Origin: Thalassobacillus devorans MSP14
GTDB taxonomy: Bacteria > Bacillota > Bacilli > Bacillales > Halobacillaceae
DNA length: 64,000 nucleotides
Direction: 5' to 3'
NCBI RefSeq assembly: GCF_000496835.1
Contig: NZ_KI543237.1
Location: forward strand, 390,364 to 454,363
Shown: in pieces, positions 6,802-22,703 of the stretch
Position numbering within the stretch: position 1 is the stretch's first letter
Layout of the letters: each line of letters starts with the position of its first letter
Program-made: the position numbers and the translations under genes
Notes under the pieces: model-generated
The model's input: the letters and a program-made list of their open reading frames with translations, nothing else
The model's database searches: none
What the model was told of the DNA's origin: nothing

Positions 6802-6848
6802 ACCTTCTCCCCTTTATTTCCTTAGCAAAACAGCCCCCTCAAAATAAT

Positions 6849-7008
6849 GAACAGCGCGAGCCGAAGATCCACTTGGTCAAGTGATCTTCTTGACCAAGTT
6901 AGCTGAGGCCGTGCCCGCGTCAAGCATCCACCGATAAGCGACTCGTGAGAATCAACAACAAACGTTGACAACCCTTTTAGGTTATAAAGGACTTTTTCAG
7001 TGGCCTCA
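6849..7008. repeat. Degenerate Bacillaceae intergenic repeat
   Basis: It shares GAACAGC-CGAG-GAAGA and GCTGAGGCCGTGCCCGCG blocks with the fuller copy at 29271-29553. An internal perfect 10-base stem (ACTTGGTCAA/TTGACCAAGT, 6871-6899) replaces the usual middle. It fills most of the 300-base gap between the lipase and lyase genes; no gene is seen there. Confidence 0.6.
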
Positions 7009-7058
7009 AAACTTCTATTTCCTTTTTTTAAGTATGGATTGCTGCTACAAAGTCATTT

Positions 7059-7103
7059 AAAAAGCAAGAAGGGCCAAAGGGTGACATTCCCCCTTGACCC
7101 TTC
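7059..7103 (-). terminator. Terminator of the ROK/ABC/lyase operon
   Basis: GAAGGGCCAAAGGG (7068-7081) pairs with CCCTTGACCCTTC (7091-7103). On the minus strand a T-rich tail follows. It lies directly after the stop of the lyase gene. Confidence 0.85.
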
Positions 7104-7108
7104 CATAC

Positions 7109-8590
7109 TCATTTTGAATTAACTAACGAATTTTTACTACGCGAAACCTTTTCCTGATATTTTTTCACCTCTTCAGATAGATTTGTCCAATCTTCTCTTC
7201 TCTGCTCGATCATTGCCTCAACCACTTTACTATTCGGGCCTCCTGTGATCTTCCTTCGTTCCACAAACTGTACCGGATCGACTATCGCTTCCCAATCTTC
7301 TTGAGCCAGGTCAACCACTTGCAGCCATGCATTGACTTCTTCTACATTTACGTCATATAATTCCTTACCTAAACTATCCACTTTTTCACTTAATTGACTG
7401 GATAATTTATGGGCTTTACGGAAAGGAACCTCGTAATCACGCGCAAGAACATCAGCTAATTCCGTAATCGTAATCATGTTTTTACCAGCCTGCTTTCGAG
7501 CTCGTTCTTTATTGAAGCTCATTGTTGAAACAACCGCATTCATTAATTTGACTACTCTATTAGCTTTGCTGAACCCATTATATAGATGGGGCTGGAGGTC
7601 GTCCTCTGTATCTACGATATCACCATATGGCGTATTGTGCAGCATTTGGATGACAGTCAGCCCTTCACCTACTGCACTGCTTGCCAGTGCACGTGAGTGT
7701 TCGATAGAAACTGGATTTCTTTTTTGCGGCATGATACTGCTCACTTGTACATAGGCATCCGAGACTTTCAACAATCCCACTTCATTGGATGCCATACGCA
7801 GGAATTCCTGAATCCATCTGCCCATATTCGTCATCGTACTGACAATGGTGAATGCAGTTTCTAATAGATAATCTCCTGCACCGATCGCATCATAGGAATT
7901 CTCCATCACTGTTTCAAATCCTAATAACCCGGCAACACGTTCCCGGTTAATATTAAATCCGGAAGTTGTGATGGCAGCAGCTCCCATCGGTGATTGATTA
8001 ACAGTATGATACGCATTCCATAAACGTTTGACATCTCTCGAGAGGTTATCTGAAATAGCCAGTAAATAGTGACCAAATGTAGTAGGCTGGGCAGGTTGTG
8101 TATGAGTATGAGCGGGCATGATGGTATTGACATGGTCAGCAGCCTGCTTGACAAGAGAATCCCCTAATTTCTGCACATTAGAAATCAAGTCAAGGAGGTG
8201 GTCTCTTATTACCAGGCGATACATAGCTTCTCCCATATCATTACGGCTTTTTGCAATATGCATTTTCCCTGCATTTTCTTCGCCAATCAAGTCAGCAATT
8301 TTTGCTTCGACATAAAAGAAGAGGTCTTCAAACTCAGGGGTGTAACACAAGGATTGATGTTCAATTTTTGACACCTCTTCTACACCCCGCAGTATTTGTT
8401 CCGCATCCTGTTCGCTTATAATTCCTTGTTCTTTCAACATCGTGGTATGTGCCCGGTGTATCATAAACATAGCATCGAACAGATAGTCCCTTTGGTCGTC
8501 AAAAACCGGCTTCAATAACTCATTGACATAGGTTTTCCCTGGAAAATGAAAGCCATCATCTTTTTCAAAGGTTTCCTTCATTTCACTCAT
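7109..8590 (-). CDS. Argininosuccinate lyase-like C-N lyase
   Basis: 493 residues of the fumarase/aspartase superfamily, argininosuccinate lyase branch. The three conserved regions are present: AKSRNDM (about 113-119), HTHTQPAQPTTF (about 161-172, with the conserved His) and SSIMPQKRNP (about 284-293, with the catalytic-loop Ser). Such enzymes eliminate an amine from a substituted succinate, releasing fumarate. The context argues against arginine biosynthesis: argG is absent and the gene is last in an operon with an ABC importer and ROK repressor. It more likely degrades an imported N-succinyl-type compound, as EDDS lyase, another argininosuccinate lyase relative, does. The exact substrate is unknown. 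ATG at 8590 follows an AGAGGTG site. Confidence 0.88.
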   Translation of the reverse strand: MSEMKETFEKDDGFHFPGKTYVNELLKPVFDDQRDYLFDAMFMIHRAHTTMLKEQGIISEQDAEQILRGVEEVSKIEHQSLCYTPEFEDLFFYVEAKIADLIGEENAGKMHIAKSRNDMGEAMYRLVIRDHLLDLISNVQKLGDSLVKQAADHVNTIMPAHTHTQPAQPTTFGHYLLAISDNLSRDVKRLWNAYHTVNQSPMGAAAITTSGFNINRERVAGLLGFETVMENSYDAIGAGDYLLETAFTIVSTMTNMGRWIQEFLRMASNEVGLLKVSDAYVQVSSIMPQKRNPVSIEHSRALASSAVGEGLTVIQMLHNTPYGDIVDTEDDLQPHLYNGFSKANRVVKLMNAVVSTMSFNKERARKQAGKNMITITELADVLARDYEVPFRKAHKLSSQLSEKVDSLGKELYDVNVEEVNAWLQVVDLAQEDWEAIVDPVQFVERRKITGGPNSKVVEAMIEQRREDWTNLSEEVKKYQEKVSRSKNSLVNSK

Positions 8591-8605: not shown

Positions 8606-10288
8606 TTATAACGTATTTTCAGATTTAACCCCGAAAAACTTATAGGACACGAACATGACAATTGCAATCAAGCCTACCTGAATCATCCCGTACGCCGCAG
8701 CCTGTCCCAGATTGAACATCCTTAATTGGTTCATGATTTCAATTGAGATAGGCCGGTTGTCGATTGTATATAACAAAACAGATGTTGGAAACTCACCTAC
8801 CGCCTGGACAAATGCAAGTAAAGTACCACTCAATACACCGGGCATGATAATAGGCAACACGACTCTCCGAAATGTATATAACCATTTGGCACCCAGATTT
8901 TGAGCAGCTTCTTCTATCGAATCGTCCATTTGTTCTAACACGGCATTCGTCGATCGTACTACTAAAGGGATGAATCTAACGAAATAGGCTAATGGGAGAA
9001 TCCAATAGGTGCCTACCAGAACTTTTCCAAAAGAAAATGGTGAAGGCTGATTGAATGCCAGAATCAAATTCATCCCTACAACTGTCGCAGGTAAAGCCCA
9101 AGGAATCATTACTAGAATATCTAATAGATTTTTGCCGATAAACTTTCTTTTCACTAATGCATAAGAAGTAATCATTCCGAAAATAAAACATCCTAAGCAG
9201 GCGACAAACGCCATAAACAAACTGTTTCTGACCGGATCCCAAATATTTGGATCTTCAAATAATAACCGGAAGTTTTCAAGGTTGAATGCAGTCGGATATG
9301 TCTGCCATGTCCAGGATCCTTCAGGAACTAAAGACAATATCGCCAAAGTCGCATGGGGAAGCAGTAAAATGATCATCGCGATAATACCGATGGTAACCAT
9401 CGTCCATTTTATTAACGGATGACTTACTTCACTTCGATGCGCACCCAATCCTTTTGTCCCCATGCGGTAATCTTTGCGGTTTTGAAACCATCTCATAAAT
9501 AATAGGAAAGATATCGAAACGACTGACAAAATGACGGACTGAGTTGCAGCCATTTCTAAGTTTCCGTTGATTTTAGAAAAATAGATTTGCAGGCTCAACA
9601 CTCGGTACCCGCCCGCTAACAGGAACGGCGCACTGAAGGAGGCCATCGATACCATGAAAACAAGCAGTGAAGCAGCTACCAATGCCGGTGTCAATAAAGG
9701 GAAAGTGACTTTCCAGAATACCCCCAAACGGTTCGATCCTAAATTCGCAGCTGCTTCCTCCAGGGAAGAGTCCACATTATTCAAGGCAGATGAGACAGTC
9801 ATATAAAAATAGGGGTACATGGTATAAGCGTGAACTAATAATATCCCGGAAACCCCTCCAAGTGTAAATGGGACTTCCTCAAGTCCAAATAAATCTTTGA
9901 TCATATTCGGGACTAATCCGGCTTCCCCATAAAGGAACATGAATGCCATGACACCTACTAAGGAAGGAAGGACAATCGGCATGATAGCAACTCCTGAGAA
10001 GAAAGAGCGCCCCGGAAAGTCGTAACGATTAAAAATGAAGGCCAGGGGAACGCCAATCAGTGCACTGAATAGTACCGATAACACAGAGATATAAACGGAG
10101 TTCCATAACGCCTCCAGGTTCGCATGTGCCTTAGGGCCAAAAAAGTCAATATAATTCTGAAAGGTAAAGATGCCTTCCTGTCTAAAACTTTCTAACATAG
10201 TCTCAAAGGATGGGTATAGAACGTATCCAGTCAAAACAATGACGATCGGAATGAGCAACAGAATGGTTTTTCTTTTTTCCGCATTCAT
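8606..10288 (-). CDS. ABC importer permease, two fused permease domains (FbpB type)
   Basis: 560 residues with about 12 membrane segments in two homologous halves. Each half carries an EAA loop that docks on the ATPase: EEAAANLGSNRLGVFWKVTFP and EEAAQNLGAKWLYTFRRVVLP. Fused permeases of this form occur in ferric-iron and 2-aminoethylphosphonate type importers. It lies between the ATPase gene (7-base gap upstream) and the lyase gene (15-base gap downstream), so one message is likely. Substrate class cannot be fixed from the sequence. Confidence 0.92.
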   Translation of the reverse strand: MNAEKRKTILLLIPIVIVLTGYVLYPSFETMLESFRQEGIFTFQNYIDFFGPKAHANLEALWNSVYISVLSVLFSALIGVPLAFIFNRYDFPGRSFFSGVAIMPIVLPSLVGVMAFMFLYGEAGLVPNMIKDLFGLEEVPFTLGGVSGILLVHAYTMYPYFYMTVSSALNNVDSSLEEAAANLGSNRLGVFWKVTFPLLTPALVAASLLVFMVSMASFSAPFLLAGGYRVLSLQIYFSKINGNLEMAATQSVILSVVSISFLLFMRWFQNRKDYRMGTKGLGAHRSEVSHPLIKWTMVTIGIIAMIILLLPHATLAILSLVPEGSWTWQTYPTAFNLENFRLLFEDPNIWDPVRNSLFMAFVACLGCFIFGMITSYALVKRKFIGKNLLDILVMIPWALPATVVGMNLILAFNQPSPFSFGKVLVGTYWILPLAYFVRFIPLVVRSTNAVLEQMDDSIEEAAQNLGAKWLYTFRRVVLPIIMPGVLSGTLLAFVQAVGEFPTSVLLYTIDNRPISIEIMNQLRMFNLGQAAAYGMIQVGLIAIVMFVSYKFFGVKSENTL

Positions 10289-10295
10289 CGATCAA

Positions 10296-11393
10296 TCACC
10301 TCTTCACCTTTGGAACGATTCGAATTTGTTCAGAAGGCAATCTCACATAAACTTCTTCACCTTCATTCAAATATGTGCTCGGTCCCCGATTAAGGTCCGT
10401 TGCTTTCAATGTGATATTTTCATTCAACTCAATAAATGTGTGAACAGCTTCTCCTGTAAATTGGACCATTTTCACTTTACCTTGAATGGTATTCTCATTT
10501 TCAGAAACAGTTTTTTTAACATCAATTGCTTCAGGGCGGATCGACATTCTTAATTGATCATTCTCCTGGCAGGCTGCTATTTGTTTAGGTGTATTATCCA
10601 CATAAATATTTGTATCCAAACTGGAATTAAAGAACCGTAACTTTTCGGGCTCATCACTTTCTAATTCCACATCGAAAAGATTGGTTTCTCCAATAAATTC
10701 AGCGACAAAATCATTGACAGGCTGGTTATAAATTTCAGTGGGGCTTCCAATTTGTTGACATTTCCCAGCATTGAACACCGCAATTCGATCACTCATGGAT
10801 AAAGCCTCTACCTGATCGTGGGTGACATAAACGGTGGTAATGCCATACTCTCTTTGGAGCCTCAAAATTTCATTTCTCATCTCATCTCTTAACCTTGCAT
10901 CCAGATTACTGAGCGGCTCATCCAATAAAAGAATGTCCGGCTCTATGACAAGGGCACGGGCCAATGCCACGCGTTGCTGCTGTCCGCCACTCAATTGACT
11001 GACTTGACGATCAATAAACTGTTTTAAATATACTTTTTCCAGAACATCTTCCACACGACGTTTAATTTCAGGCTTCTTTGTTTTTCTAACCTTAAGTCCA
11101 AAGGCTACATTTTCAAATACGGTCATATGAGGAAAAAGGGCATAGTTTTGAAACACCATGCCCGTATTCCTTTTTTCTGGGGAGACAGTTGTCATGTCCC
11201 TGTCATTGAATTTAACTTTTCCTTTTGATGGATAGTAAAACCCGGCAATGATTCTAAGCGTTGTAGTCTTCCCACAGCCGCTTGGTCCCAAAAAAGTGAA
11301 AAATTCACCTTCATTTATAATCAGATCTAATTCTTTTACTGCAGTAAAATCTCCAAATTTTTTCGTGATATTTGATAGATTCACAGATGACAT
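10296..11393 (-). CDS. ABC importer ATP-binding protein (FbpC/PotA type)
   Basis: The start is the ATG at 11393 (MSSVNLSNITKKFGD), nine bases after AGAGGAG; the open frame reaches 11666 but that extension overlaps the binding-protein gene and is not real. Walker A is GPSGCGKTT, the Q-loop is MVFQNYALFPHM, the signature is LSGGQQQR, Walker B is ILLLDEPLSNLD and the switch His is in VYVTHD. A C-terminal TOBE-like region (about 235-365) follows. It powers the importer of which the neighbours are the permease and binding protein. Confidence 0.93.
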   Translation of the reverse strand: MSSVNLSNITKKFGDFTAVKELDLIINEGEFFTFLGPSGCGKTTTLRIIAGFYYPSKGKVKFNDRDMTTVSPEKRNTGMVFQNYALFPHMTVFENVAFGLKVRKTKKPEIKRRVEDVLEKVYLKQFIDRQVSQLSGGQQQRVALARALVIEPDILLLDEPLSNLDARLRDEMRNEILRLQREYGITTVYVTHDQVEALSMSDRIAVFNAGKCQQIGSPTEIYNQPVNDFVAEFIGETNLFDVELESDEPEKLRFFNSSLDTNIYVDNTPKQIAACQENDQLRMSIRPEAIDVKKTVSENENTIQGKVKMVQFTGEAVHTFIELNENITLKATDLNRGPSTYLNEGEEVYVRLPSEQIRIVPKVKR

Positions 11394-11412
11394 GACGAAC
11401 AACTCCTCTGTG

Positions 11413-12528
11413 TTATTCTCCAGTTTCTTTTTCGCTATTTTTAATGTTCTGATCCCAGTACTCCATCCAGTCATCAGACTTTTCCTGGAAAACGGACCAA
11501 TCGATATCCATCGGTTTGATATCCGTATTTTTGATCCATTCCGGAAGTTCTTCCACATCGTTTCTGGTCGGGATACGATAAAATTTTTCAGCCAGCAGCT
11601 TAGCTGCTTCCTTAGTGTTAACGAACTCATAAAAAGCTTTTGCGGCTTCCGGATGAGGCGCCCCATCTACGATTGCGATGCCTTCAGTCAAAACAGGAGT
11701 ACCGCTTTCCGGTATGACATAGCTAAAAGGATAGCCTTTCTCTTCAGCAAGCATGACGGTATCAGGCATATTCCAAACAGAAACCGTTCCTACACCCTTA
11801 GCAACCTGGTTATACATTATTTCCGGGTTGGCTGCATACTCTTTTGTGTTTTCATCCAGTTTTTGCAACCATTCATAACCTGCTTCTGGACTCTTTGTTT
11901 CTTTATAATCACGGTAAATCATAGCAGAATAAATTGTTCGCATCGTACCAGACGCAAGCGGGTAACGGATGATGATTTCATCTTTCCATTTTGGATCTAC
12001 CAGATCGTCCCAGTCTTTTGGTGCTTCTTCTTTTGTAAGTTCTTTATTGTTATACAGGATTACCTCCGGTGTCTGGGAAGTACCAGTCCAGAACCAATCT
12101 TCATCATGATACATATCATCTAAAGCATCAGCGTAGGATGGTTTATATTTTTGCAAAAGCTCATCGTTCTTTGCTTCATCAAACATTACCTGTGGCGCTC
12201 CCCACCAAATATCAGCTTGTGTGTTATTTTTTTCAGAGCGGACACGGTCAAGAATTTCTTGAGAACCCATGTCAAGGAATTCCATGTCGACGTCATATTC
12301 TGCTTCGAATTGCTTTTCGAATTCCCCAAGAATATCTTTACCATGCGGAGAATAGACGACTACTTTATCTTCGAGTTCTTTCCCTTCAGAATTAGTAGAT
12401 TCCCCTCCTCCTTCACTGTCGCTGCCTCCTGATGCCTGCTTGTCATCTCCCGCCATACAACCGGCCAATAGGAATGACAATGATAATGCCAAAGCCAGTA
12501 TTATCATCCAACGTTTCTTGAATTTCAT
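11413..12528 (-). CDS. Extracellular solute-binding lipoprotein of the ABC importer
   Basis: 371 residues. A lipoprotein signal ends in the lipobox LLAGC, followed by an acidic Gly/Ser linker. The mature part starts VVVYSPHGKDILGEFEKQFEAEYD, typical of the AfuA/FutA iron- and phosphonate-type binding proteins (class II fold). Cys is lipid-anchored and the domain captures substrate outside the membrane. RBS GAGGGGG precedes the ATG. The strongly acidic mature N-terminus fits a halophile. The ligand is unknown; the operon enzymes point away from plain iron uptake. Confidence 0.9.
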   Translation of the reverse strand: MKFKKRWMIILALALSLSFLLAGCMAGDDKQASGGSDSEGGGESTNSEGKELEDKVVVYSPHGKDILGEFEKQFEAEYDVDMEFLDMGSQEILDRVRSEKNNTQADIWWGAPQVMFDEAKNDELLQKYKPSYADALDDMYHDEDWFWTGTSQTPEVILYNNKELTKEEAPKDWDDLVDPKWKDEIIIRYPLASGTMRTIYSAMIYRDYKETKSPEAGYEWLQKLDENTKEYAANPEIMYNQVAKGVGTVSVWNMPDTVMLAEEKGYPFSYVIPESGTPVLTEGIAIVDGAPHPEAAKAFYEFVNTKEAAKLLAEKFYRIPTRNDVEELPEWIKNTDIKPMDIDWSVFQEKSDDWMEYWDQNIKNSEKETGE

Positions 12529-12543
12529 ATAGGTACCCCCTCT

Positions 12544-13707
12544 TCAAATTTTAAAAATGGAATCATACTCTTTTAAAAACAATGCTACCGCTCCGATTAC
12601 ACCTGCTTCTTTTCCAAATGTGGAAGGAACTACTTTACATTTCTTAGGAGTAAACCGTTCTAGGATGTCATCTAACTGGTTCTTGAACTCACTGAATGCT
12701 CCGCTGACACCACCTCCTAAAATGACAATTTCAGGATCAAATAATGAAACATAATTAGCGATCCCTAATCCTAAGTTTTCAATAGCAGTTTCGACAACTT
12801 TCCTGGCATCTGGATCACCCGCCTTTACAAGTTCAAATGCTTCCTTTGCGGTGATTGTACGATTTTTGATTTTTGATAGTTTATTGCCAATCGATGATCC
12901 GCTTGCCACACTTTCCAGAAACCCATACCCTTCAAACACGGGATGATAGTGGTTTGCTAGTTCCCTGTCTGTTACCAGGTAGCCCATTTCGCCCGCACTG
13001 TAATTGCTGCCTCGATACAGCTGTCCATTAATGATAAGACCACTGCCGATCCCTGTTCCAATAGCAATATAAATAAGATTATCTTTTTGCTGACCGGCAC
13101 CAAGCCAGTGTTCACCAAGCACACTTGTATTGACATCATTTTCGATATAGATAGGAAAATTAAAATATTTTTCAGCATTTTCTCTTGCAGAAAAATATTT
13201 CCATTGCAAGGCAGGAGCATCGATAACTAACCCTTGGGTCACATCAGTCACGCCTGGCACTCCAATGCCCATTCCTAAAATATCCTGATCTCTTATATTC
13301 AGTTCTTTCATCATTTCAGCAACATCATTATGTAAGCGCTTAAATAAGCTGCGATTTAAAAAGTCCTGTGTAGGAAATTCCCGGGAAGCATACACACGAC
13401 CATCCAAATCTACTATTCCTGAAGCAACTTTCGTCCCCCCGATATCTACCCCTACAACATAGGCTGCTTTCGGGTTGAAGATGAGATTGACCGGCTTCCT
13501 TCCGCCGCTGAGGGAAGATTGACCAGGACCAGTTTCAGTAATCCAATTTTCTTTCAAAAGCTGATCTACAAGAAGTGATACCGTGGGCTTGCTAATATTG
13601 ACTTTTTTAGATATTTCTGACCGGGATATCGGAGCATGGTCTTTAATGCATGTTAAGACCAGCTGTTTATTCATATTTTTTATGTAAGCTGCATCGCCCT
13701 TCTGCAT
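12544..13707 (-). CDS. ROK-family transcriptional repressor
   Basis: 387 residues. An N-terminal winged helix-turn-helix (about 12-65, ISRSEISKKVNISKPTVSLLVDQLL) precedes a ROK kinase-like domain with the phosphate-binding VVGVDIGGTKVASGIVD, ENDVNTSVLGE and AIGTGIGSGLI motifs. The usual ROK zinc motif (CxCGxxGCxE) is absent: after SAGEMGYLV the chain runs into NHYHPVFEGYGFLES without cysteines. Family members repress sugar genes and release DNA on binding a sugar or sugar phosphate. It is first in the ABC/lyase operon, 15 bases before the binding protein, and divergent from the PIG-L gene. Operator-like palindromes lie before both transcripts. Confidence 0.92.
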   Translation of the reverse strand: MQKGDAAYIKNMNKQLVLTCIKDHAPISRSEISKKVNISKPTVSLLVDQLLKENWITETGPGQSSLSGGRKPVNLIFNPKAAYVVGVDIGGTKVASGIVDLDGRVYASREFPTQDFLNRSLFKRLHNDVAEMMKELNIRDQDILGMGIGVPGVTDVTQGLVIDAPALQWKYFSARENAEKYFNFPIYIENDVNTSVLGEHWLGAGQQKDNLIYIAIGTGIGSGLIINGQLYRGSNYSAGEMGYLVTDRELANHYHPVFEGYGFLESVASGSSIGNKLSKIKNRTITAKEAFELVKAGDPDARKVVETAIENLGLGIANYVSLFDPEIVILGGGVSGAFSEFKNQLDDILERFTPKKCKVVPSTFGKEAGVIGAVALFLKEYDSIFKI

Positions 13708-13740
13708 CGTTTGAGCCCCTTTTCCAAATAATAAAAGGTT

Positions 13741-13765
13741 TTAGTTAGTTAAGATTACTTACCAA
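13741..13765. promoter_or_regulatory. ROK-type operator before the repressor operon
   Basis: TTAGTTAG, a 9-base spacer, then CTTACCAA (6 of 8 matches to the perfect arm CTAACTAA). It lies 34 bases upstream of the repressor ATG and shares spacing and the left arm with the perfect site at 14035-14059. It probably mediates autorepression. Confidence 0.6.
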
Positions 13766-14024
13766 CCGGTTACCTTTATTTATAAATGATGGTAAATATA
13801 ATGTAAAATGGCAAAATCAGATAATTATTAGCTTAAAACATACTTTTTATATATTTTACTTCCATTTGCTTCCTTTATCTAAATTTTAGAAAATTTAAAC
13901 AGTTATGCTCACACCTGTACTATAATAAATTTAAACCTGATATATAAGCACTTTCATTGAAAGCACATCTTTTTTACTATAAAAATAGCCCAATAGTAAG
14001 TTCCATTTTATGGGTTATAACTAG

Positions 14025-14030
14025 TATAAT
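14025..14030 (+). promoter_or_regulatory. -10 element of the PIG-L gene
   Basis: A perfect TATAAT (14025-14030) lies 60 bases before the start codon, with no good -35 at 16-18 bases. Transcription would begin near 14037, inside the operator palindrome. The rest of the 382-base divergent gap (13708-14089) is AT-rich and shows no other gene. Confidence 0.55.
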
Positions 14031-14034
14031 TGAA

Positions 14035-14059
14035 TTAGTTAGGAACCTTAACTAACTAA
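14035..14059. promoter_or_regulatory. ROK-type operator before the PIG-L gene
   Basis: Perfect 8-base arms TTAGTTAG and CTAACTAA with a 9-base spacer. Size, 25-base span and outer TTAGTT...AACTAA resemble the XylR operator of Bacillus, also a ROK protein. It overlaps the expected transcription start, an ideal place for repression. Confidence 0.75.
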
Positions 14060-14062
14060 AAT

Positions 14063-14076
14063 TGAAAACGATTACA
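14063..14076. promoter_or_regulatory. CcpA cre site of the PIG-L gene
   Basis: TGAAAACGATTACA matches the cre consensus TGWAANCGNTNWCA at every position and lies directly before the ribosome binding site. Binding of CcpA here should block transcription when preferred sugars are present. Confidence 0.8.
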
Positions 14077-14089
14077 AAGGAGGATTCAT

Positions 14090-16615
14090 TTGAAAAAAGT
14101 AGCACAGTTACTGTTAAGTTTCGTATTGTTGCTCGCTGCATTTATCCCCGGAGTCAGTCGGGCAGAAGAAACTCCTGACCCTGCTTTAGACCTTTGGGAA
14201 GCCGTCGTACCATTGACTACAACTGTCAGTTTTATGAACACAGGAGCCCACCCGGACGATGAGCGAAGTCAGTTTTTAGCTTACCTGTCCAGAGGACTTG
14301 GTGTACAAACTTCCTTCCTTCTTTCTACACGAGGGCAAGGAGGTCAAAATGAGATTGGTCCGGAACTCGGCGACCCGCTCGGTATGATTCGGACTAGAGA
14401 ACTTCAAGCTTCCTCGAAAGTATTAGGAATCGATATCTTCTTCTTGAACCAAAGCTTCGACGATAGCGTAAAAGACTTTGGTTTTTCCAAATCACCTGAA
14501 GAAACCCTGCAAAAATGGGGAGAATCCCAAACCTACGAAAGACTTATCCGGTATATTCGTGAATTCAAACCGGATATCATCATGCCTTCCTTCCGTAACG
14601 TAGATACACAACACGGCCATCACCGCGCTATGAACTTATTGACGAAAAGAGCCTTTGAAGATGCAGCAGATCCTTCTGTGTTCCCAGAGCAGTTAGAAGA
14701 AGGACTGACGACATGGCAAATCAAAAAGCTATACTTGCCAGCAGAAACAGAAGAACAGACAACTACTACAATTGAAATTGGAATCAAAGATGAGAAATAT
14801 GACATGACATACCCTCAACTGGGAGAAAAAGCAAGATACCTGCATGAATCTCAAGGAATGGGCCGAGATGTGGGTGAGGGATCGGTAACAGTCAATCTTG
14901 AGCTCGTTGCATCTACTGTAGGTGACATTCCTGAACAAGAAGACAGTATTTTCACCGACCTGCCATATGATTTCAGTGACTTTGCAAAAAAGATGTCCAA
15001 GGGCGGAAATGCATATAAAAACAAGCTTGTCCGCTTACAAGATCAGTTGGAAAATGTAAAAGAAGCATACCCTTCTCATGAACAGGTGTTAGATAACGCA
15101 CAGCAAACACTGACAGACTTACGTAAACTCGAAGAAAAAATTTCTAAAGGAACACAACTTTCTGAAGAGTTGAAGACTACTTTGCTCCAGAAGTTGCAAG
15201 TCAAAGAGAAACAGCTGACAGAGACTATTTTCACTGCAGCTCAACTGGAAGTAGAAATTCAGGTAGAAGATTCTCAATTGACTGAGGCAGATCAAACAGG
15301 AGTAAATATTACTGTCTCAAACAACGGGATGGATTCCATCAAGGGATTAGATGGAGAATTGACTACCCCGGAAAATTGGGAGATTGAAGGAAATCCTGGC
15401 GCTATCAATCTTGAACCTGGTAAACAGCAGACTTTCAATTATAAAGTGACTGTACATGGAAATGACTTTTATGATGCCTATGACAAGCCAGCTATTTCAG
15501 CTGAACTAAGCTTTTCCACAGAAAAAACCGAAGTAGAAAAGGTTTTCTACCCGGATGAACGAGTAGCACTGCTTCCGAAAGTTTCTTTACAAGTCGATCC
15601 TGAAAACCTGGTGATCAATACAGCTGATGTGCGAGATAACATTCCAGTAGAAGTAACAATCGAAAAATTTGCTGAAGGGGAACTTGATACGGAAGTTGCA
15701 CTGCAATTACCGGAGAATTGGAGTTCTGAACCAGCATCAAAATCGGTGAGCTTTTCTGCTGATGAAAGTGAGAAAACAGTGACTTTCACACTGACGCCGC
15801 CACCATCTGTGGTAGAAGGTTCATTTACCATCACTCCTGAGGCTGAAATCAATGGGTCAGTGGTTAGTACATCCGTACAAACCATCCAATATCCACATAT
15901 CGGTACAGATTATTACTTGTATAATGCTAAAGTAGACGGGGTATCTTTCCCATTACACTACCCGGAAAACTTGAAAGTAGGCTATGTAGATAGTGGGTTT
16001 GATAAAGTTGCAGACCAGCTTTCTAATATCGGAATCGATATAACCAAACTTTCCGAGGAAGACTTAGCCAGCGGAAATCTCTCCCAATACGATACGATTG
16101 TCACTGGGATCAGAGCATATTTGTCCCGGGAAGATTTACTTGCAAACAATTCACGACTTTTGGAATACGTCAACCAGGGAGGTCATTTAGTAGTCCAGTA
16201 CAATAAACCATGGGATAACTGGAATTCAGACACAACAGCACCATACAAATTGGTCATCGGCCAGCCCTCTATTGAATGGCGTGTTACACATGAAGATGCA
16301 CCAATCACTGTCTTGAAACCTGAATCTCCTTTGTTCAACTACCCGAATACGATCAAACAATCTGATTGGGAGGGTTGGGTACAAGAACGCGGCCTATACT
16401 TTCCAATGGAATGGGCAGACGAATATGAAACATTCGTAAGTGTCGGTGATCCAGGAGAAGATGAATTCACAGGCGGCATTTTGAAAGCAGATTATGGCGA
16501 GGGAACCTATATCTATAGCAACCTGGTGTGGTACCGCCAGATTCAAAATCAGGTTCCTGGAGGATACCGTATCTTTACTAACCTGATCAGCCAGCCTTAC
16601 TACCAGGCAGAATAA
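14090..16615 (+). CDS. Secreted multidomain PIG-L family deacetylase
   Basis: 841 residues from a TTG start six bases after AAAGGAGG. A signal peptide ends near residue 25 (GVSRAEE). The PIG-L/LmbE domain (about 45-250) has the metal-binding AHPDDE at 53-58 and a downstream HGHHR near 173, the expected zinc ligands. Family members remove N-acetyl groups from GlcNAc-type sugars. Then follow a helical linker (about 300-380), two NEW3-like beta-sandwich domains (about 385-480 and 495-600) and a C-terminal alpha/beta domain of glutamine-amidotransferase-like layout (about 605-835, GGHLVVQYN). It is far larger than BshB-type cytosolic enzymes (about 230 residues) and acts outside the cell. ROK operator and cre lie upstream, so it is an induced catabolic enzyme. 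Confidence 0.9.
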   Translation: MKKVAQLLLSFVLLLAAFIPGVSRAEETPDPALDLWEAVVPLTTTVSFMNTGAHPDDERSQFLAYLSRGLGVQTSFLLSTRGQGGQNEIGPELGDPLGMIRTRELQASSKVLGIDIFFLNQSFDDSVKDFGFSKSPEETLQKWGESQTYERLIRYIREFKPDIIMPSFRNVDTQHGHHRAMNLLTKRAFEDAADPSVFPEQLEEGLTTWQIKKLYLPAETEEQTTTTIEIGIKDEKYDMTYPQLGEKARYLHESQGMGRDVGEGSVTVNLELVASTVGDIPEQEDSIFTDLPYDFSDFAKKMSKGGNAYKNKLVRLQDQLENVKEAYPSHEQVLDNAQQTLTDLRKLEEKISKGTQLSEELKTTLLQKLQVKEKQLTETIFTAAQLEVEIQVEDSQLTEADQTGVNITVSNNGMDSIKGLDGELTTPENWEIEGNPGAINLEPGKQQTFNYKVTVHGNDFYDAYDKPAISAELSFSTEKTEVEKVFYPDERVALLPKVSLQVDPENLVINTADVRDNIPVEVTIEKFAEGELDTEVALQLPENWSSEPASKSVSFSADESEKTVTFTLTPPPSVVEGSFTITPEAEINGSVVSTSVQTIQYPHIGTDYYLYNAKVDGVSFPLHYPENLKVGYVDSGFDKVADQLSNIGIDITKLSEEDLASGNLSQYDTIVTGIRAYLSREDLLANNSRLLEYVNQGGHLVVQYNKPWDNWNSDTTAPYKLVIGQPSIEWRVTHEDAPITVLKPESPLFNYPNTIKQSDWEGWVQERGLYFPMEWADEYETFVSVGDPGEDEFTGGILKADYGEGTYIYSNLVWYRQIQNQVPGGYRIFTNLISQPYYQAE

Positions 16616-16621
16616 TCATTA

Positions 16622-16658
16622 CACCCCGGGTCCTCCAATATCTGGAGGACCCGGGGTG
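16622..16658. terminator. CCCCGGG hairpin repeat acting as terminator
   Basis: CACCCCGGGTCCTCCA pairs perfectly with TGGAGGACCCGGGGTG around a 5-base loop. On the plus strand it is followed by TAATTTATTTTTT, just after the PIG-L stop. It also reads from the minus strand and so separates this gene from the small gene at 16688. Member of a dispersed family. Confidence 0.85.
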
Positions 16659-16687
16659 TAATTTATTTTTTATTTCTATTAGTTCTA

Positions 16688-16899: not shown

Positions 16900-16946
16900 A
16901 ATAAGACCCCGGGACATCCAGAAAATGGATGTCCCGGGGTCTTATT
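16900..16946. terminator. CCCCGGG hairpin repeat, terminator of the carbamoylase operon
   Basis: A 21-base perfect stem with arms starting AATAAGACCCCGGGACATCCA and a 5-base loop. T-rich tails occur on both strands. It lies 12 bases after the carbamoylase stop. Inner stem bases differ from the 16622 copy in a compensating way. Confidence 0.85.
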
Positions 16947-16958
16947 ATTAATTCATTA

Positions 16959-18254
16959 TCAATCGATTGACTCAATGTATGTTTTTAGCACATGTACCCC
17001 TTGGACGATATCATTTAAAGAGGACCATTCTTCTGGGTTATGACTGACTCCATTTTTGCTGTTAACAAACAACATTGCAACTGGAAGGTGATGACCGATG
17101 ATAAGAGCGTCATGCCCCGCCCCACTTGGAATTTCCACTGGCTTAATATCGTGTTTTTCCAATGCCAGGCTTAGAAGCTGTTTCCTTTCATCGTCAATTG
17201 GAACCGGGGTTACTTCAAGGTTTTGCTGGTGGTTTGCTTTTACCCCGCAATTGTCAGCAATCCGTTCTGCTTCTTCGATTATTCTAAGCGTAAGTTCATT
17301 CCTTGTATCTGCATAGATATCGCGGATATCAACAATCAGGGATACTTTTCCTGGAATCACATTCGCTCCATTAGGGTGGACATGAAGCTTTCCGACTGTA
17401 GCAACCGCGGAGTCGCTCACTTTTCCCGGCAACTGATGTATCGTACGGACAAAGTCACCTGCTGCCACCAAAGCATCCTGCCTTTCTGTCATCGGCGTGT
17501 TCCCTGCATGACCGGCAACTCCAATAAAATCGACTTCCAGCCACGCCGGGCCAGCAATTCCCGAGACAATACCTACGGGCAGGTTTTGTGCTTCTAATTT
17601 AGCCCCCTGTTCAATATGTATCTCTACATAAGTCTTGATGCCGCTTAAATCCCGGGCTGCTTCAGCGAAGCTTTCCTCAGACAGACCGATATCTTCCATG
17701 ACTTTTGCAAAAGAATTGCCATCCTGATCGACAAGTGTTCTTTGCAATTCCATATCGACTTCTCCTGCCATGGCCCGGCTTCCGGTCAGCCCGCTATTGA
17801 AGCGTGCCCCCTCTTCATCTGAAAAAATAGCTATTTCATAGGAATGGTTCGGCTGGTATCCTGTTTCCTTCCATGCTTCGACCACCTCCAGAGCAGAAAG
17901 TACCCCGAGCGGGCTATCGAAATGACCACCATTCGGGACACTATCTACATGGCCACCACTCATAATCGCAGGTAAAGAATGATCTTTCCCCTCTAAACGT
18001 CCAAACACATTTCCTGCTCCATCTTCCGACACGTTCAAACCGGCTTCTTTCATCCAAATTTTCATTAGATCTTTCGCTTGTTTTTCTTCCTTTGAAAAAC
18101 CGATACGCCTGCTCCCGCCATCATCTGTCAGTCCGATTTCCGATATGGCATGGAACCGCTTGGCAAGCCTGTCTCCATTGATGCCTTCATACGTATAGTT
18201 TCCATCATAATCCTTGATTAATCTACCATATAAATCCCATTCTTCTGCTGCCAT
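16959..18254 (-). CDS. M20 family Zn-dependent hydantoinase/N-carbamoylase
   Basis: 431 residues. Metal-ligand segments are SGGHVDSVPNGGHFDSPLGV (usually G-S-H-x-D) and FSDEEGARFNSGLTGSRAM with the paired Glu; later VEIHIEQGAKLE and the C-terminal PSGAGHDALIIG are typical of the allantoate amidohydrolase / N-carbamoyl-L-amino acid hydrolase group. It hydrolyses carbamoyl or similar amides in the cytoplasm with two metal ions. The ATG is four bases after the amidohydrolase stop, so the two are coupled. With the transporter and GAF-PucR regulator upstream it likely acts in uptake and breakdown of an N-substituted amino acid, hydantoin or ureide. The substrate is not determined. Confidence 0.9.
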   Translation of the reverse strand: MAAEEWDLYGRLIKDYDGNYTYEGINGDRLAKRFHAISEIGLTDDGGSRRIGFSKEEKQAKDLMKIWMKEAGLNVSEDGAGNVFGRLEGKDHSLPAIMSGGHVDSVPNGGHFDSPLGVLSALEVVEAWKETGYQPNHSYEIAIFSDEEGARFNSGLTGSRAMAGEVDMELQRTLVDQDGNSFAKVMEDIGLSEESFAEAARDLSGIKTYVEIHIEQGAKLEAQNLPVGIVSGIAGPAWLEVDFIGVAGHAGNTPMTERQDALVAAGDFVRTIHQLPGKVSDSAVATVGKLHVHPNGANVIPGKVSLIVDIRDIYADTRNELTLRIIEEAERIADNCGVKANHQQNLEVTPVPIDDERKQLLSLALEKHDIKPVEIPSGAGHDALIIGHHLPVAMLFVNSKNGVSHNPEEWSSLNDIVQGVHVLKTYIESID

Positions 18255-18258
18255 GTTA

Positions 18259-19503
18259 TCACCTTTCTGTCAGATCTTTATAAATCTTGCCGTCTTTCAT
18301 GACCATCACGATCCGGTCACTGTCTTCCAATGCGCGTATATCTGATAGAGGATCGACATCGGTCAAAATGATATCTGAAATTTTTCCTTCTTCCACTGTT
18401 CCGACTTTATCTTCCCATCCCAGGCACTCAGCAGCTGTTTTGGTAGTAGCGACCAGTGCTTCCATCGGAGACATGCCGATATCACACATCAGTCCAAGTT
18501 CTCTGAGATTGGTACCATGAGCCATCACACCTGCATCTGTTCCCATAGCAATTTTCACTCCTGCCTGGTATGCTTTCGCGATACTCTCTTTGTGAGCTTC
18601 AATGACTTCTTTTGATTTTGCAACAGCATAAGGCGCCATGCGGTCATTTTCTTTGCTGGACTCCAGCACGGACACAGGCGCAAGAAGAGTCGGTACTAAA
18701 AATGTACCGTTTTCCAGCATCAGTTCGATCGCTTCGTCATCGATATAGATGCCGTGTTCGATAGAATAGATACCTGCCCGGATTGCATTTTTGATCCCTT
18801 CCGCTCCCTGAGCATGAGCCATAACCTTTATCCCTTTTCGGAACTGCGCTTCTTCTACCATGACCTCCAGTTCCTCCAGGGAAAATTGCGTGAACTCAGG
18901 ATGATCCGTCGGGCTTGAGACACCGCCCGTCGCATGGACTTTAATAACGTCCGCCCCTGCACGCAGCATTTGACGTACCGTCTTTCTTACTTCTTCTCTT
19001 CCGTCACAAATGGCATATGGCATCCCCGGATAAGTCTGCATCGTCGTATCGAACCCGGACCGATTCCAGTTGTCACCATGACCGCCAGTAGTCGTAATAG
19101 GATTGATGCTTACTTGCATGCGGGGGCCTTCGACCACTCCATCTTCCACTGCTTTTTTCATACCGAGATCGGAAAAACCGGCATCGCGAACCGATGTGAT
19201 TCCAACATCGAGCGTCCTTTTCATATAGTGGACACTTTCATAAAAACGATAAGAAAACGGCGTCAGGATCGTGTCCTGGATGCTTTTTAATTCCATTGCC
19301 ATATGGACATGGGTATCAATCAAACCAGGTAAAATATATTTTCCTTCCGCATCGATGACTTTGGCATCCTCCGGGACTTTTACATCAGTTACTGATCCAA
19401 CCTGTTCAATTTTGTTTCCATTAATTAAAACAGCTGCTTCCTGAACTGGCTCGTTCCCTTTCCCATCTATCAACGTTCCATTTGTAATCAATGTGTAAGA
19501 CAT
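18259..19503 (-). CDS. Metal-dependent amidohydrolase (imidazolonepropionase/prolidase-like)
   Basis: 414 residues of the amidohydrolase superfamily. LPGLIDTHVHMAMEL gives the HxH ligands near residue 65, VIKVHATGGVSSPTDHPEF holds the bridging Lys region, MAHAQG and SIEHG provide the two later histidines, and MGTDAGVMAHGTN the catalytic Asp. Relatives include Xaa-Pro/Xaa-Arg dipeptidases and imidazolonepropionase-like enzymes. It is the second gene of the operon transporter-amidohydrolase-carbamoylase, consistent with sequential hydrolysis of a cyclic or acylated amino acid. RBS GGAG precedes the ATG at 19503. Confidence 0.9.
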   Translation of the reverse strand: MSYTLITNGTLIDGKGNEPVQEAAVLINGNKIEQVGSVTDVKVPEDAKVIDAEGKYILPGLIDTHVHMAMELKSIQDTILTPFSYRFYESVHYMKRTLDVGITSVRDAGFSDLGMKKAVEDGVVEGPRMQVSINPITTTGGHGDNWNRSGFDTTMQTYPGMPYAICDGREEVRKTVRQMLRAGADVIKVHATGGVSSPTDHPEFTQFSLEELEVMVEEAQFRKGIKVMAHAQGAEGIKNAIRAGIYSIEHGIYIDDEAIELMLENGTFLVPTLLAPVSVLESSKENDRMAPYAVAKSKEVIEAHKESIAKAYQAGVKIAMGTDAGVMAHGTNLRELGLMCDIGMSPMEALVATTKTAAECLGWEDKVGTVEEGKISDIILTDVDPLSDIRALEDSDRIVMVMKDGKIYKDLTER

Positions 19504-19520
19504 ATTATCATTCTCCTTTT

Positions 19521-20690
19521 TTATAGCGTTCCTATTAAAATACTTGCGATAACAATGGAGCCTATCGTGACAGAAGTGAACCCGCCGATCAGCATGGGTG
19601 CTACGAGTTCATTCATAATCCGTCGCTGCTCCGCTTCATTGCGTCCAACACTTCTGCTCACTTCTTCTACTATCAGATAATCACCAGGAAAACCGTATAG
19701 TGCTGTTAACACGACAGGAATCGATTTCGTCGGTTTCCATTTAAAAATTTTTCCGCCAATAATGCCGCCGATGATAAGACCAGTTGTACCGATGACAATA
19801 ATGAAGATAACAGGCAATAAAGCCGATACGACCTGATCCCAGGTGATGCCCACAAGGGAATTGATGACTACGATGATCAATGCCACCATGGCAAGACCGG
19901 TACTATTCGATTTATCAAGAGCACGGTCTGGATAAAAGCGAAACGCAGAGCCCGCTACCCCAATTGCCAGTGACCAGAGGCTGTAGTTGATGCCAGTGAT
20001 ACTGCCAAGCCAGGTAGCCAGAGCACCTCCAATGAATAACAGGAAGAGGATGAAAAAGTGACTTTGCATGAAGCGTGCTGGTATAATCAGCTTTTTATCT
20101 GGATCCGCTGCCAATGGACTGTCTGGCTGTTCTGTGGTTGCTACTGCTTCATCAGCCAGACTATCACGAATGCTTAGCGCATATTTACTCAATAAAATCG
20201 AAGTGAGCGGCATGCCGACAAGGTTTTGCAGAGCAAAAACAACTACCGGTATAGCTGCAATGGAGGTGTAGCCTGCTGCAGTCAAACCTTCTGAAGTCAC
20301 GATGTAGGCGATGATCCCCCCTGTCAGTGGACCAGCACCAGCTACAGCAGTACTGTAATCGAAAAACAGCGTTATGAGAGAAAGCATAGTCACGACCGAA
20401 ATAATTAATCCTATTACGGTAATGAGTACTGCCTGGTACTGTTTTTTTATCACTGGTAATGGAATTAATGTCCCCAGGTGTACAATTAAGACCGGAACAA
20501 GCACACTACCGGCAGCAACAAATGTAGATGCTTCAATGTATGATTCAGGCAAAATACCTGTCTGAAGCAATACGAATGTTGTGGCGATGACCACCAATAA
20601 GGTGGGAATCTTCGCTCTCGTAGATAACGAAAGTACTTCCCCTAATGCGATGATGGCAACAAGTAACAAAACAATATAAATGGGCTGCAT
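19521..20690 (-). CDS. Multi-pass transporter, possibly GltS/ESS-like
   Basis: 389 residues with about 10-11 hydrophobic segments and a central hydrophilic loop (about 185-205). Two glycine-rich re-entrant-like stretches, AGAGPLTGGIIAYIVTSEG and TALYGFPGDYLIVEEVSRS, resemble the layout of Na+/glutamate symporters (ESS family), but I do not see a decisive signature, so the family is tentative. It is first in the operon with the amidohydrolase and carbamoylase, so it probably imports their substrate. Confidence 0.7.
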   Translation of the reverse strand: MQPIYIVLLLVAIIALGEVLSLSTRAKIPTLLVVIATTFVLLQTGILPESYIEASTFVAAGSVLVPVLIVHLGTLIPLPVIKKQYQAVLITVIGLIISVVTMLSLITLFFDYSTAVAGAGPLTGGIIAYIVTSEGLTAAGYTSIAAIPVVVFALQNLVGMPLTSILLSKYALSIRDSLADEAVATTEQPDSPLAADPDKKLIIPARFMQSHFFILFLLFIGGALATWLGSITGINYSLWSLAIGVAGSAFRFYPDRALDKSNSTGLAMVALIIVVINSLVGITWDQVVSALLPVIFIIVIGTTGLIIGGIIGGKIFKWKPTKSIPVVLTALYGFPGDYLIVEEVSRSVGRNEAEQRRIMNELVAPMLIGGFTSVTIGSIVIASILIGTL

Positions 20691-20722
20691 AAATTCACGT
20701 CCTCTTTGATGTAATAGTCAAA

Positions 20723-20728
20723 ATTATA
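20723..20728 (-). promoter_or_regulatory. -10 element of the transporter/amidohydrolase operon
   Basis: On the minus strand a perfect TATAAT lies 33 bases before the transporter ATG. No good -35 is found 16-18 bases upstream, which points to an activator-dependent promoter; the inverted repeat at 20755-20796 lies in the activator position. Confidence 0.5.
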
Positions 20729-20754
20729 AGATAATTCAGGACGATAAAACATAT

Positions 20755-20796
20755 GGGTAACCGACAAATATAAACAATTATTTTTGTCGGTTACCC
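20755..20796. promoter_or_regulatory. Long inverted repeat, operator or terminator
   Basis: GGGTAACCGACAAA and TTTGTCGGTTACCC are perfect 14-base arms with a 14-base AT-rich loop. It lies between the regulator stop and the transporter promoter. Neither strand has a clear run of T after the stem, so binding by the GAF-PucR protein is at least as likely as termination. Confidence 0.6.
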
Positions 20797-20808
20797 ACAA
20801 TCTTGATT

Positions 20809-22584
20809 CTATTCATCTAAATATTCTAAAATACTCAATCCAAGCTGAAGTTCAAAGGCTTTTTGCCCATTTAATTTTTCCAAACCCAATTGCTCGTATA
20901 TAGTTTTTAAACGATATTTGATGGTATTGACGTGGACATACAGTTTCTTGGCACTTTGAGTCATGCTTTGATTCGTATCTAAATAAGTTTTCAAAGTTTT
21001 TAGCAGTTCTGTTTCATTTCTATTATCGTATCTTTTGATTACCCCTAAAACATCATTAGTATATTCGCGTAATTCTTTCCGATCCATTTTCAAGAAAAGA
21101 CGATAAGGCCCAAGTTGTTGGTAATTCAGCATGTATTTCTCCTTATACGTCGATTGCAAAAACTCTATACAACGCCTGGCATCGTGATAGGAAATACGCA
21201 CATCTTTCAACTTTTCTACCACCTGACCGAATCCTACGTTATTGGTGAGCTCCAACTGCTCTGCTCCCAGCTTGATTATGGTTTCAAATAGACTTTCCAA
21301 CTGATGATAAACCTGGTTTTCATCTAATCTTGCGGAAACGGTGAACATCATCGTCACTTCCAGATTGCGGTCATATACCAGTGTTTTATATGGTAAACGG
21401 GAAACTTCCCGGTAAATAATCCGCATCATTTGCTGTTTCTTATCAGCGATTTTTTCAAAAGCGAGCAATGGATGTTTAATATAAAGCTGGGCCACTACAT
21501 AATGATGGTGATCCAATTCCGGGAAATTAATTTTAGCAAGGTTAATTGATGATAAATCGTCATACGGGTCATGGATCAGTCGCTCTAATATGGTACCTGA
21601 ATAACTGAAATCCTCTGCAACCAGACGCTCCTGCCGATCGATTTCCATAGCGAACACCGTAACCGCCTGCTCAATTGCGAAACGATCCAGAGGGTCAAGA
21701 CTGGTACCCTTTTCAACCAGTATCGTAAGCAGTCCAAACGAACGCACCTCTGTGTGTATGGGGAAAAAATAGACCAGGTATTCCTTATCTTTGAGGAAGA
21801 TCAGCTGAGAATTCAGTTTTGTTTGAAATACAGATTCATCCAGTAACGAAGTATAATTGTTCTTTAAATCTTTGGCTAAAGAGACAATAGGCTGCTCTGA
21901 AACAGCCAGCGTTTCCAATACTTCATTAAATACCATAACCGGCTTTTCAATCAGGTTGGAAAGGGAAACAGTAATGTCTTTTAGTCCACCTTTTGACAAG
22001 GATACCCTGGAGAGCTCTTCATGAATCCGTTTAGTCCGTTCATTTTGAGAAAATAATGTAGCATTTTCAATAGCAATGGTCGCCTGGCCTGCAAATGTTT
22101 CAAGTAATTGCAGATCGGAATCATCGAATTGTATATCTTCTTCGAAAATATCTACGGTCAGAACGCCGATACACTCCCCATTAGTGATTAATGGCACACA
22201 AATAGCACTGACCGGATATTCCATTCTTCCTAAGGAGCTCGCGTAAGTCTGCTCTGTTTTTGATGATATATTAGACATACCATAAGCTGTATCGGAGGGA
22301 GAAGAGAAAATTCTACCTTCCTTAGATAAGAATGTCCGTCCACTCATGCCTTCGCCTGGGCGTAATTTTATTTCTTGCATATAATCCATATCAAAGCCGA
22401 TAGCACTTTTAGCATAGAGCATGTCCGATTGTTCGTCGTAAAGGAACAGCACGCTTGCATTCGCGCCACCAATCACATTAAGTACCTCTCTGATCAACTG
22501 CTCCAATACCTCGGAAAGGTCGCGCGTTGAATTTAACACTCGGACTGAATTTATTAAACTCATCAACCGTTTTTCACTTTCCAT
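20809..22584 (-). CDS. GAF domain / PucR-type transcriptional regulator
   Basis: About 591 residues. An N-terminal GAF domain (about 20-180, with ASVLFLYDE, GEGMSGRTF and FAGQATIAIENATLF) is followed by a middle sensory region and a C-terminal PucR helix-turn-helix (about 535-590, YLDTNQSMTQSAKKLYVHVNTIKYRLKTI). ATG at 22584 is preferred over the TTG one codon earlier, seven bases after GGGAGGGGG. PucR-type proteins usually activate purine, amino acid or sugar acid catabolism. It lies upstream of and in line with the transporter-amidohydrolase-carbamoylase operon, its likely target. A close relative sits at 33989-35809 beside another transporter/M20 operon. Confidence 0.88.
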   Translation of the reverse strand: MESEKRLMSLINSVRVLNSTRDLSEVLEQLIREVLNVIGGANASVLFLYDEQSDMLYAKSAIGFDMDYMQEIKLRPGEGMSGRTFLSKEGRIFSSPSDTAYGMSNISSKTEQTYASSLGRMEYPVSAICVPLITNGECIGVLTVDIFEEDIQFDDSDLQLLETFAGQATIAIENATLFSQNERTKRIHEELSRVSLSKGGLKDITVSLSNLIEKPVMVFNEVLETLAVSEQPIVSLAKDLKNNYTSLLDESVFQTKLNSQLIFLKDKEYLVYFFPIHTEVRSFGLLTILVEKGTSLDPLDRFAIEQAVTVFAMEIDRQERLVAEDFSYSGTILERLIHDPYDDLSSINLAKINFPELDHHHYVVAQLYIKHPLLAFEKIADKKQQMMRIIYREVSRLPYKTLVYDRNLEVTMMFTVSARLDENQVYHQLESLFETIIKLGAEQLELTNNVGFGQVVEKLKDVRISYHDARRCIEFLQSTYKEKYMLNYQQLGPYRLFLKMDRKELREYTNDVLGVIKRYDNRNETELLKTLKTYLDTNQSMTQSAKKLYVHVNTIKYRLKTIYEQLGLEKLNGQKAFELQLGLSILEYLDE

Positions 22585-22703
22585 CAAATTGCCCCCTCCC
22601 TATTTCCACCAACTATTATCGACAAGCATACGTTATCCTCTCTTTATGGTAAAGGGGTTTTCCAAAACCCAGGTCGCGTTCCTGGTTACACTTCCTCAAA
22701 AAA

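Follow-up and report, generated by a model that had tools for sequence, protein, structure and literature searches.

Gene content of the cluster

A divergent gene cluster was analysed in a window of 64,000 nt (the whole stretch of DNA considered here) from the 3.94 Mb genome assembly of the salt-loving bacterium Thalassobacillus devorans MSP14. Five minus-strand genes, arranged head to tail from position 13707 down to 7109, encode a regulator of the ROK family, the solute-binding protein, ATPase and fused permease of an ABC importer, and a lyase of the argininosuccinate lyase (ASL) superfamily. The sixth gene, pigL (14090-16615, plus strand), is divergent from this rok operon and encodes an amidase of the PIG-L/LmbE type. 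The ROK, importer, lyase and PIG-L calls of the original prediction hold against Pfam and NCBIfam models, which add an NPCBM_assoc domain to the PIG-L protein.

The rok product (12544-13707, minus strand) combines a ROK domain (PF00480, 193 bits) with an N-terminal MarR-type winged helix-turn-helix (HTH) domain (PF01047, 38.3 bits), both above the Pfam cut-off. The PDB sequences that match it, HTH included, are 5f7p/5f7r (Lmo0178) and 4ija (XylR). A cysteine zinc cluster is typical, though not strictly defining, of NagC, Mlc and XylR. In contrast to these proteins, the ROK part was found by eye to have no cysteine in the corresponding stretch.

The solute-binding protein (11413-12528, minus strand), a lipoprotein as judged by eye, matches PF13416 and PF13343 (SBP_bac_8/6), and its closest PDB sequences are 6wce and 4r72. 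The ATPase (10296-11396, minus strand) carries an ABC_tran (PF00005) and a TOBE_2 domain (PF08402) and passes the model of the broad potA subfamily, TIGR01187 (369.9, cut-off 355.6). The permease (8606-10288, minus strand) is a fusion of two domains, as PF00528 (BPD_transp_1) matches in two stretches. Its top NCBIfam model, PhnU2, scores 208 bits, far below the cut-off, and the modB model TIGR02141 is passed (200.1, cut-off 182.6) by summing the two stretches.

A shared operator and its tie to the ROK gene

Two predicted ROK operators of the pattern TTAGTTAG-N9-CTAACTAA lie between the divergent rok and pigL starts. A perfect palindrome and a second site with the same left arm had been reported in the original prediction, and both are present at 14035-14059 and 13741-13765. 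The first, on the pigL side, reads TTAGTTAG GAACCTTAA CTAACTAA on the plus strand and has perfect arms. The second, located before the rok-importer-lyase operon, reads TTAGTTAG TTAAGATTA CTTACCAA on the same strand and carries two mismatches, both in its right arm. When they are compared in opposite orientations, the operators are identical at 21/25 bases, spacer included (counted by eye). The perfect palindrome does not lie over the PIG-L start, as had been stated, but ends 30 bp upstream of the TTG start codon at 14090, directly 3' of a -10-like TATAAT (14025-14030). The second operator is located 33 bp upstream of the rok ATG and follows a minus-strand TTTACA-17-TATAAA.

Possible promoters were assigned by eye to pigL (TTCCAT-18-TATAAT, 14001-14030, plus strand) and rok (TTTACA-17-TATAAA, 13779-13807, minus strand). 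Both blocks are largely conserved in an alignment of near relatives, from which the row of L108, a coding sequence, was left out. Neither is among the sites listed by a consensus scan, whose promoter-like sites are no more numerous than in shuffled sequences. Because the operators directly follow the -10-like boxes recognized by eye, the ROK protein would be expected to act as a repressor. A terminator-like stem-loop is also found in the rok-pigL intergenic region (13948-13966, minus strand; one found, 0.1 expected).

Within the window, the operator pattern is matched three times with up to three mismatches, compared with a mean of 0.33 in dinucleotide shuffles; one of the three is the perfect site in a register shifted by 4 bp. 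Across the genome, three places match with up to two mismatches, and two of them are the operators described here. At three mismatches the pattern is not enriched genome-wide (10 forward matches versus 42 for a reversed-pattern control), and therefore no wider regulon is claimed in the genome of T. devorans.

The conservation of the operator was examined in 36 cluster-bearing neighbourhoods of relatives. With up to three mismatches, the pattern occurs in 51/62 regions upstream of rok or pigL, a set in which divergent pairs overlap and loci share ancestry, compared with 1/443 regions upstream of other open reading frames (ORFs) in these neighbourhoods and 1/310 shuffled regions. In three genomes (G131, G050 and G095) pigL is unlinked to the lyase gene, and the operator is retained before the unlinked copy in both of those examined, G131 and G050, with one mismatch in locus L112 and three in L114.

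The site also follows the presence of the regulator gene. It is found with up to three mismatches in 38/52 loci that carry a full-length ROK gene and in 0/17 loci without one whose operon start is within view (Fisher p 4e-8, a value that presumes independent loci, although these are not independent). By eye, some of these 17 loci appear rich in GC, where an AT-rich site is less likely anyway. The count omits L209, a duplicate of L019, as well as eight loci whose ROK position may fall outside the stretch (L022, L100, L213-L216, L218 and L219); of these eight, only L100 has the site. Against a general tie, 14 of the 52 ROK-bearing loci have no operator at this threshold, including two with regions too short to scan. 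Nine clusters with more distant ROK genes were inspected in addition: the TTAGTTA/TAACTAA core recurs in a palindrome of L197, L208 and L222, a weaker form is seen in L221, L227 and L228, and L220 has no palindrome of this kind, while the stretches of L195 and L215 contain too little upstream sequence for the check.

The joint control of both transcripts that had been proposed is thus strongly supported by comparison, and it is very likely that the ROK protein regulates secreted PIG-L, importer and lyase as one regulon. That the palindromes are chance AT-rich repeats would fit the missing genome-wide enrichment at three mismatches, but is hardly credible given their near absence from control regions, their absence from the loci without a ROK gene and their retention before unlinked pigL copies.

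The arrangement resembles that of XylR and other ROK repressors of Firmicutes, with ROK and winged HTH domains, a palindrome with GTT/AAC arms near the promoter and a nearby catabolite-responsive element (cre). The XylR site is given as GTTT-N7-AAAC in PMC9104551; the arms here are TTAGTTAG/CTAACTAA, and the targets are amidase, importer and lyase rather than xylose genes. NagC-controlled catabolism of N-acetylglucosamine and glucosamine likewise involves a ROK repressor, and amino-sugar kinase and NagB genes are found with the cluster in relatives; an outside amidase and a fumarate lyase are added here.

The perfect cre described in the original prediction is present at 14062-14076 (plus strand) but is not conserved upstream of pigL in relatives. 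A perfect match occurs in only 1/47 pigL and 2/28 rok upstream regions, with L211 counted in both. With up to one mismatch, a cre is found in 16/47 pigL regions versus 120/826 controls, a weak enrichment. The window contains 11 perfect cre matches in nine places, compared with 0-2 in five mononucleotide shuffles; those at 14062-14076 and 40846-40860 are near-identical and match on the reverse strand too.

Distribution and gene neighbours in relatives

A contig scan with a reach limited to close relatives returned 14 loci, from Halobacillus, Alkalihalobacillus, Pseudalkalibacillus, Virgibacillus and Bacillus, and ROK, importer, lyase and PIG-L occur together in 11 of them. L022, in which a contig end cuts off the start of the cluster, shows importer ATPase, permease, lyase and PIG-L. 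Two Virgibacillus loci (L023 and L024) keep PIG-L, lyase and ROK, but their importer is of the CUT1 sugar type and they also encode a GH4 glycosidase. The neighbourhood search suggested in the original prediction found the combination conserved in other genomes. In an order-level sample of 299 genomes, 31 have a PIG-L match (E to 1e-40) and 58 a lyase match (E to 1e-120), and the lyase lies within 10 kb of PIG-L in 28/31 (coordinates compared by eye). A broader lyase profile matches 73/398 genomes of a class sample (E to 1e-115), and PIG-L matches 9/398 of a phylum sample (E to 1e-30). Within the family of the window's own genome, PIG-L is patchy (7/44 genomes). Since ORF calling fails in GC-rich loci, counts were taken from tblastn tables.

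Single loci show variants of these genes. The long PIG-L is found in two pieces in L197 (5292-7868) and L183 (8868-11425), and two tandem long PIG-L genes precede the lyase in L213 and L214. In L014 the match to the importer ATPase (6297-7372) is split in two, and the frame may be interrupted in that record.

The neighbours of the lyase were recorded in 98 distinct loci. These were chosen for diversity, are related by descent and are cut at stretch ends, so that the counts are neither frequencies nor independent. An importer is nearby in 74 loci (54 of the Fe/phosphonate type, 20 of the CUT1 type), a long PIG-L is present in 57 and a ROK gene in 56, glucokinase-like members counted. A NagK-like kinase gene lies within 400 bp on the same strand in 24 loci; those kinases that were scored fall far below the cut-off of the NagK model. 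In L202, lyase and kinase genes overlap by 8 bp (by eye). NagB adjoins the lyase in two loci (L118 and L185), both times over the TIGR00502 cut-off, and L231, fetched after the count, has a NagB-like neighbour below it. GH4 genes occur in two of the 98 loci.

A short PIG-L or BshB2 is found in 12/98 lyase loci; among the two of the 12 that were scored, L202 passes the BshB2 cut-off and L195 fails. BshB2 over the cut-off stands beside lyase, kinase and YojF/DUF1806 in L202 and L230. The lyase occurs in 7/41 genomes of the family of G539, and in two of these seven, G539 and G1075, the genes for lyase, kinase, YojF (DUF1806) and BshB2 form a single row. The BshB2 copies borne by these rows are 73% identical to each other, versus 57% identity to the query for the closest other copy of G539 and 54% for that of G1075. 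The row-borne BshB2 was therefore regarded as a separate paralogue.

Two loci have a more complex setting. In L230 (2307-17991), importers of both the CUT1 and the Fe/phosphonate type surround a group made up of lyase, kinase, YojF, BshB2 and a creatininase-family gene. In L231 (8029-16546) lyase, the NagB-like gene, two GH4 genes, two NagK-like kinases and a GNAT acetyltransferase are encoded on one strand.

Enzymes and candidate substrate

The PIG-L protein has 841 aa and belongs to the PIG-L/LmbE metalloamidases, with a PF02585 score of 66.7 bits against a cut-off of 28.2, and its NPCBM_assoc (NEW3) domain scores 48.7 bits (PF10633). The metal ligands, those of the HPDD motif (H54, D56 and D57) and the distal histidines (H175, H177 and H178), are invariant in 11/11 sequences. 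The enzyme is probably secreted, as judged from a signal peptide seen by eye. It shares the catalytic domain with the amidases BshB2/Bca and Mca of bacillithiol and mycothiol metabolism. Mca is its top NCBIfam model, but the score of 47.0 bits is far under the cut-off of 277.15, and the BshB2 model is not among its matches at E 0.001, so that it was assigned to neither group. It further differs from these enzymes by its length, the signal peptide and the additional NPCBM_assoc and C-terminal parts. According to PMC4101496, the LmbE-like enzymes identified by 2014 all use N-acylglucosamine cores, and the substrate of BshB is GlcNAc-Mal (printed there as 'maleate').

The lyase (7109-8590, minus strand; PF00206, Lyase_1, and PF14698, ASL_C2) scores 353.4 bits with TIGR00838, over the cut-off of 279.5. 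A plain ArgH identity was judged improbable: the main ArgH is another copy elsewhere in the genome (650.9 bits), and residues outside the shared motifs differ. Across 62 lyase-family sequences, the genome's ArgH agrees with the family in 55 columns of at least 97% invariance, including the superfamily signature. Seventeen columns are invariant in the lyase family yet different from ArgH, 15 of them comparable; the ArgH sequence used starts at an internal Met, which places L26 and P28 outside the comparison. The locus count accompanying the column frequencies, 81/99, is that before removal of one duplicate. The ArgH segment YNKDMQEDKE, which we take to contact arginine, is replaced by GDIVDTEDDLQP in the lyase-family consensus, and NPV mostly stands in place of NPD (94% of family sequences have V).

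By sequence, the solved structures nearest to the lyase are 6rx8 and 6g3d-6g3i. Among them, 6G3H is EDDS lyase, a C-N lyase, for which PMC12363623 gives R112, N113, Q159, N288, D290 and Y320 as substrate-contact residues. In a phmmer alignment, R112, N113 and N288 are kept, and Q159, D290 and Y320 are lost, aligning with H163, V294 and D324, the last beside a gap; the lyase was not assigned to the EDDS lyases. With ArgH and the EDDS lyase of Chelativorans it shares the sequence family, the SSIMPQK(R)NP signature and the TH and SRND motifs. With these superfamily motifs kept, the main ArgH encoded elsewhere and the ArgH segment replaced, the lyase is expected to release fumarate but is unlikely to use argininosuccinate.

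The substrate taste of PIG-L enzymes, and the NagK-like kinases, NagB and BshB2 paralogues that adjoin the lyase, point to a glucosamine-malate compound of the bacillithiol type; bacillithiol is Cys-GlcN-malate according to PMC4360819. A lyase acting on glucosamine-malate would give fumarate and glucosamine, so that kinase and NagB fit as the next two steps. In the proposed mechanism, the ROK protein, bound to the two XylR-like operators just past each -10 box, would keep both promoters off until a sugar-type inducer appears. Secreted PIG-L would then hydrolyse the N-acyl group outside the cell, acting on bacillithiol, its S-conjugates or GlcNAc-malate, and the ABC importer would take up the anionic glucosamine-malate. 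The non-ArgH lyase could eliminate fumarate by C-O elimination and thereby free glucosamine, which a kinase (many relatives encode one within the cluster; here its gene is presumably located elsewhere) and NagB would feed into glycolysis. The window genome has one NagB, located elsewhere.

The order of outside deacetylation, uptake and cleavage put forward in the original prediction fits this scheme, whereas the N-succinyl-like conjugate is more plausibly a glucosamine-C4-diacid conjugate, most likely O-linked glucosamine-malate of the bacillithiol type. The parts of the scheme differ in strength. Genes and switch are well supported, and the molecule is a guess. A lyase pathway yielding glucosamine and fumarate appears fairly probable. 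For a ROK-repressed regulon of two divergent transcripts that catabolises an N-acylglucosamine-malate compound of bacillithiol type, the case is evenly balanced, and a substrate of bacillithiol type taken by itself is plausible but falls slightly short of that. Somewhat more tentatively, the cluster may represent a dedicated scavenging and catabolic pathway for bacillithiol across Firmicutes, including organisms without detected BshC. It would comprise a secreted thiol-conjugate amidase, a glucosaminyl-malate importer and a new enzyme within the ASL superfamily, a glucosaminyl-malate lyase by which fumarate is eliminated across the glycosidic C-O bond.

BshC is present in the window genome and was found in 37/45 cluster-bearing genomes tested. 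If bacillithiol is the substrate, the carriers without a detected BshC would argue for scavenging rather than recycling; they would also fit a different substrate.

Several observations speak against a glucosamine-malate pathway of this kind. Characterised close relatives of the lyase cleave C-N bonds. The importer models conflict in name, with 2-aminoethylphosphonate below the cut-off and broad polyamine and molybdate models above it. No kinase, NagB or BshB2 was found among the ORFs scanned around the window cluster, and importer, long PIG-L and kinase are all missing from 18/98 lyase loci. Five of the seven lyase-bearing genomes in the G539 family have no BshB2 beside the lyase. The creatininase-family gene in 5/98 and Amidohydro_2 in 4/98 lyase loci are left unexplained. 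The GH4 glycosidase of the two Virgibacillus loci and L231 could itself split a glucosamine-malate glycoside, which would make the lyase redundant. Finally, BshC was not found in 8/45 carriers (G377, G343, G875, G884, G856, G738, G776 and G990; the assemblies of G884 and G856 are 84% and 89% complete).

With the same regulon and steps, the conjugate could instead be an N-linked amino-sugar aspartate (opine- or Heyns-type), from which a true C-N lyase would release fumarate and the amino sugar. The closest solved sequences, with EDDS lyase among them (PMC12363623), agree with such a reaction, and NagK-like kinases and NagB are compatible with either linkage. This variant is nevertheless unlikely, as it leaves unexplained both the taste of PIG-L enzymes for N-acylglucosamine (PMC4101496) and the presence in G539 and G1075 of BshB2 paralogues next to the lyase, and as three of the EDDS-lyase contacts are replaced.

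Recycling of the cell's own bacillithiol, rather than scavenging of outside material, would agree with BshC in most carriers tested and with the presumption, in PMC4101496, that Bca allows recycling of GlcN-Mal. The signal peptide that was seen by eye in the large PIG-L, the conserved importer and the carriers without BshC make it improbable. Slightly less probable still is a C-S lyase that acts on S-succinated thiols (S-succino-bacillithiol or S-succinocysteine) and frees their fumarate once the conjugate has been cleaved by the amidase. Thiol-conjugate amidases are among the PIG-L/BshB2 relatives (PMC4101496 and PMC4360819), but kinase and NagB beside the lyase would serve only the other half of the molecule. 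An aminopolycarboxylate or metallophore system, in which the Fe/phosphonate-type importer brings in a chelator that an EDDS-lyase-like enzyme breaks down, matches the resemblances of importer and lyase, yet ranks lowest among these alternatives in view of the ROK control (no search for iron-regulator sites was made), the CUT1 sugar-type importer in 20/98 loci and the kinase and NagB neighbours.

An open-access literature search for PIG-L or deacetylase together with argininosuccinate lyase and the ROK family returned nothing related. No paper on bacillithiol breakdown as a nutrient was among the open-access matches listed, a weak negative because subscription papers and preprints were outside its scope. 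If the glucosamine-malate reading is true, a conserved operon converting the glucosamine-malate backbone to glucosamine and fumarate would constitute a thiol-scavenging route for these bacteria and extend the argininosuccinate lyase superfamily by a new reaction. Whatever the substrate, the regulon is defined enough for direct assay of each step, and annotations that call the lyase ArgH would be corrected.

Beyond pigL, strong GC-rich inverted repeats with a common CCCGGG core are located at 16618-16662, directly after the gene, and at 16903-16943; as judged by eye, they are likely terminators. A separate gene set follows on the minus strand (16959-22587) and includes a hydrolase of the M20 hydantoinase/carbamoylase type. 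It further encodes a membrane-like protein of 389 aa without a Pfam or NCBIfam match, an amidohydrolase that is nearest to a Xaa-Pro dipeptidase model, below its cut-off, and a regulator-like protein with a PucR/CdaR-type look (by eye).

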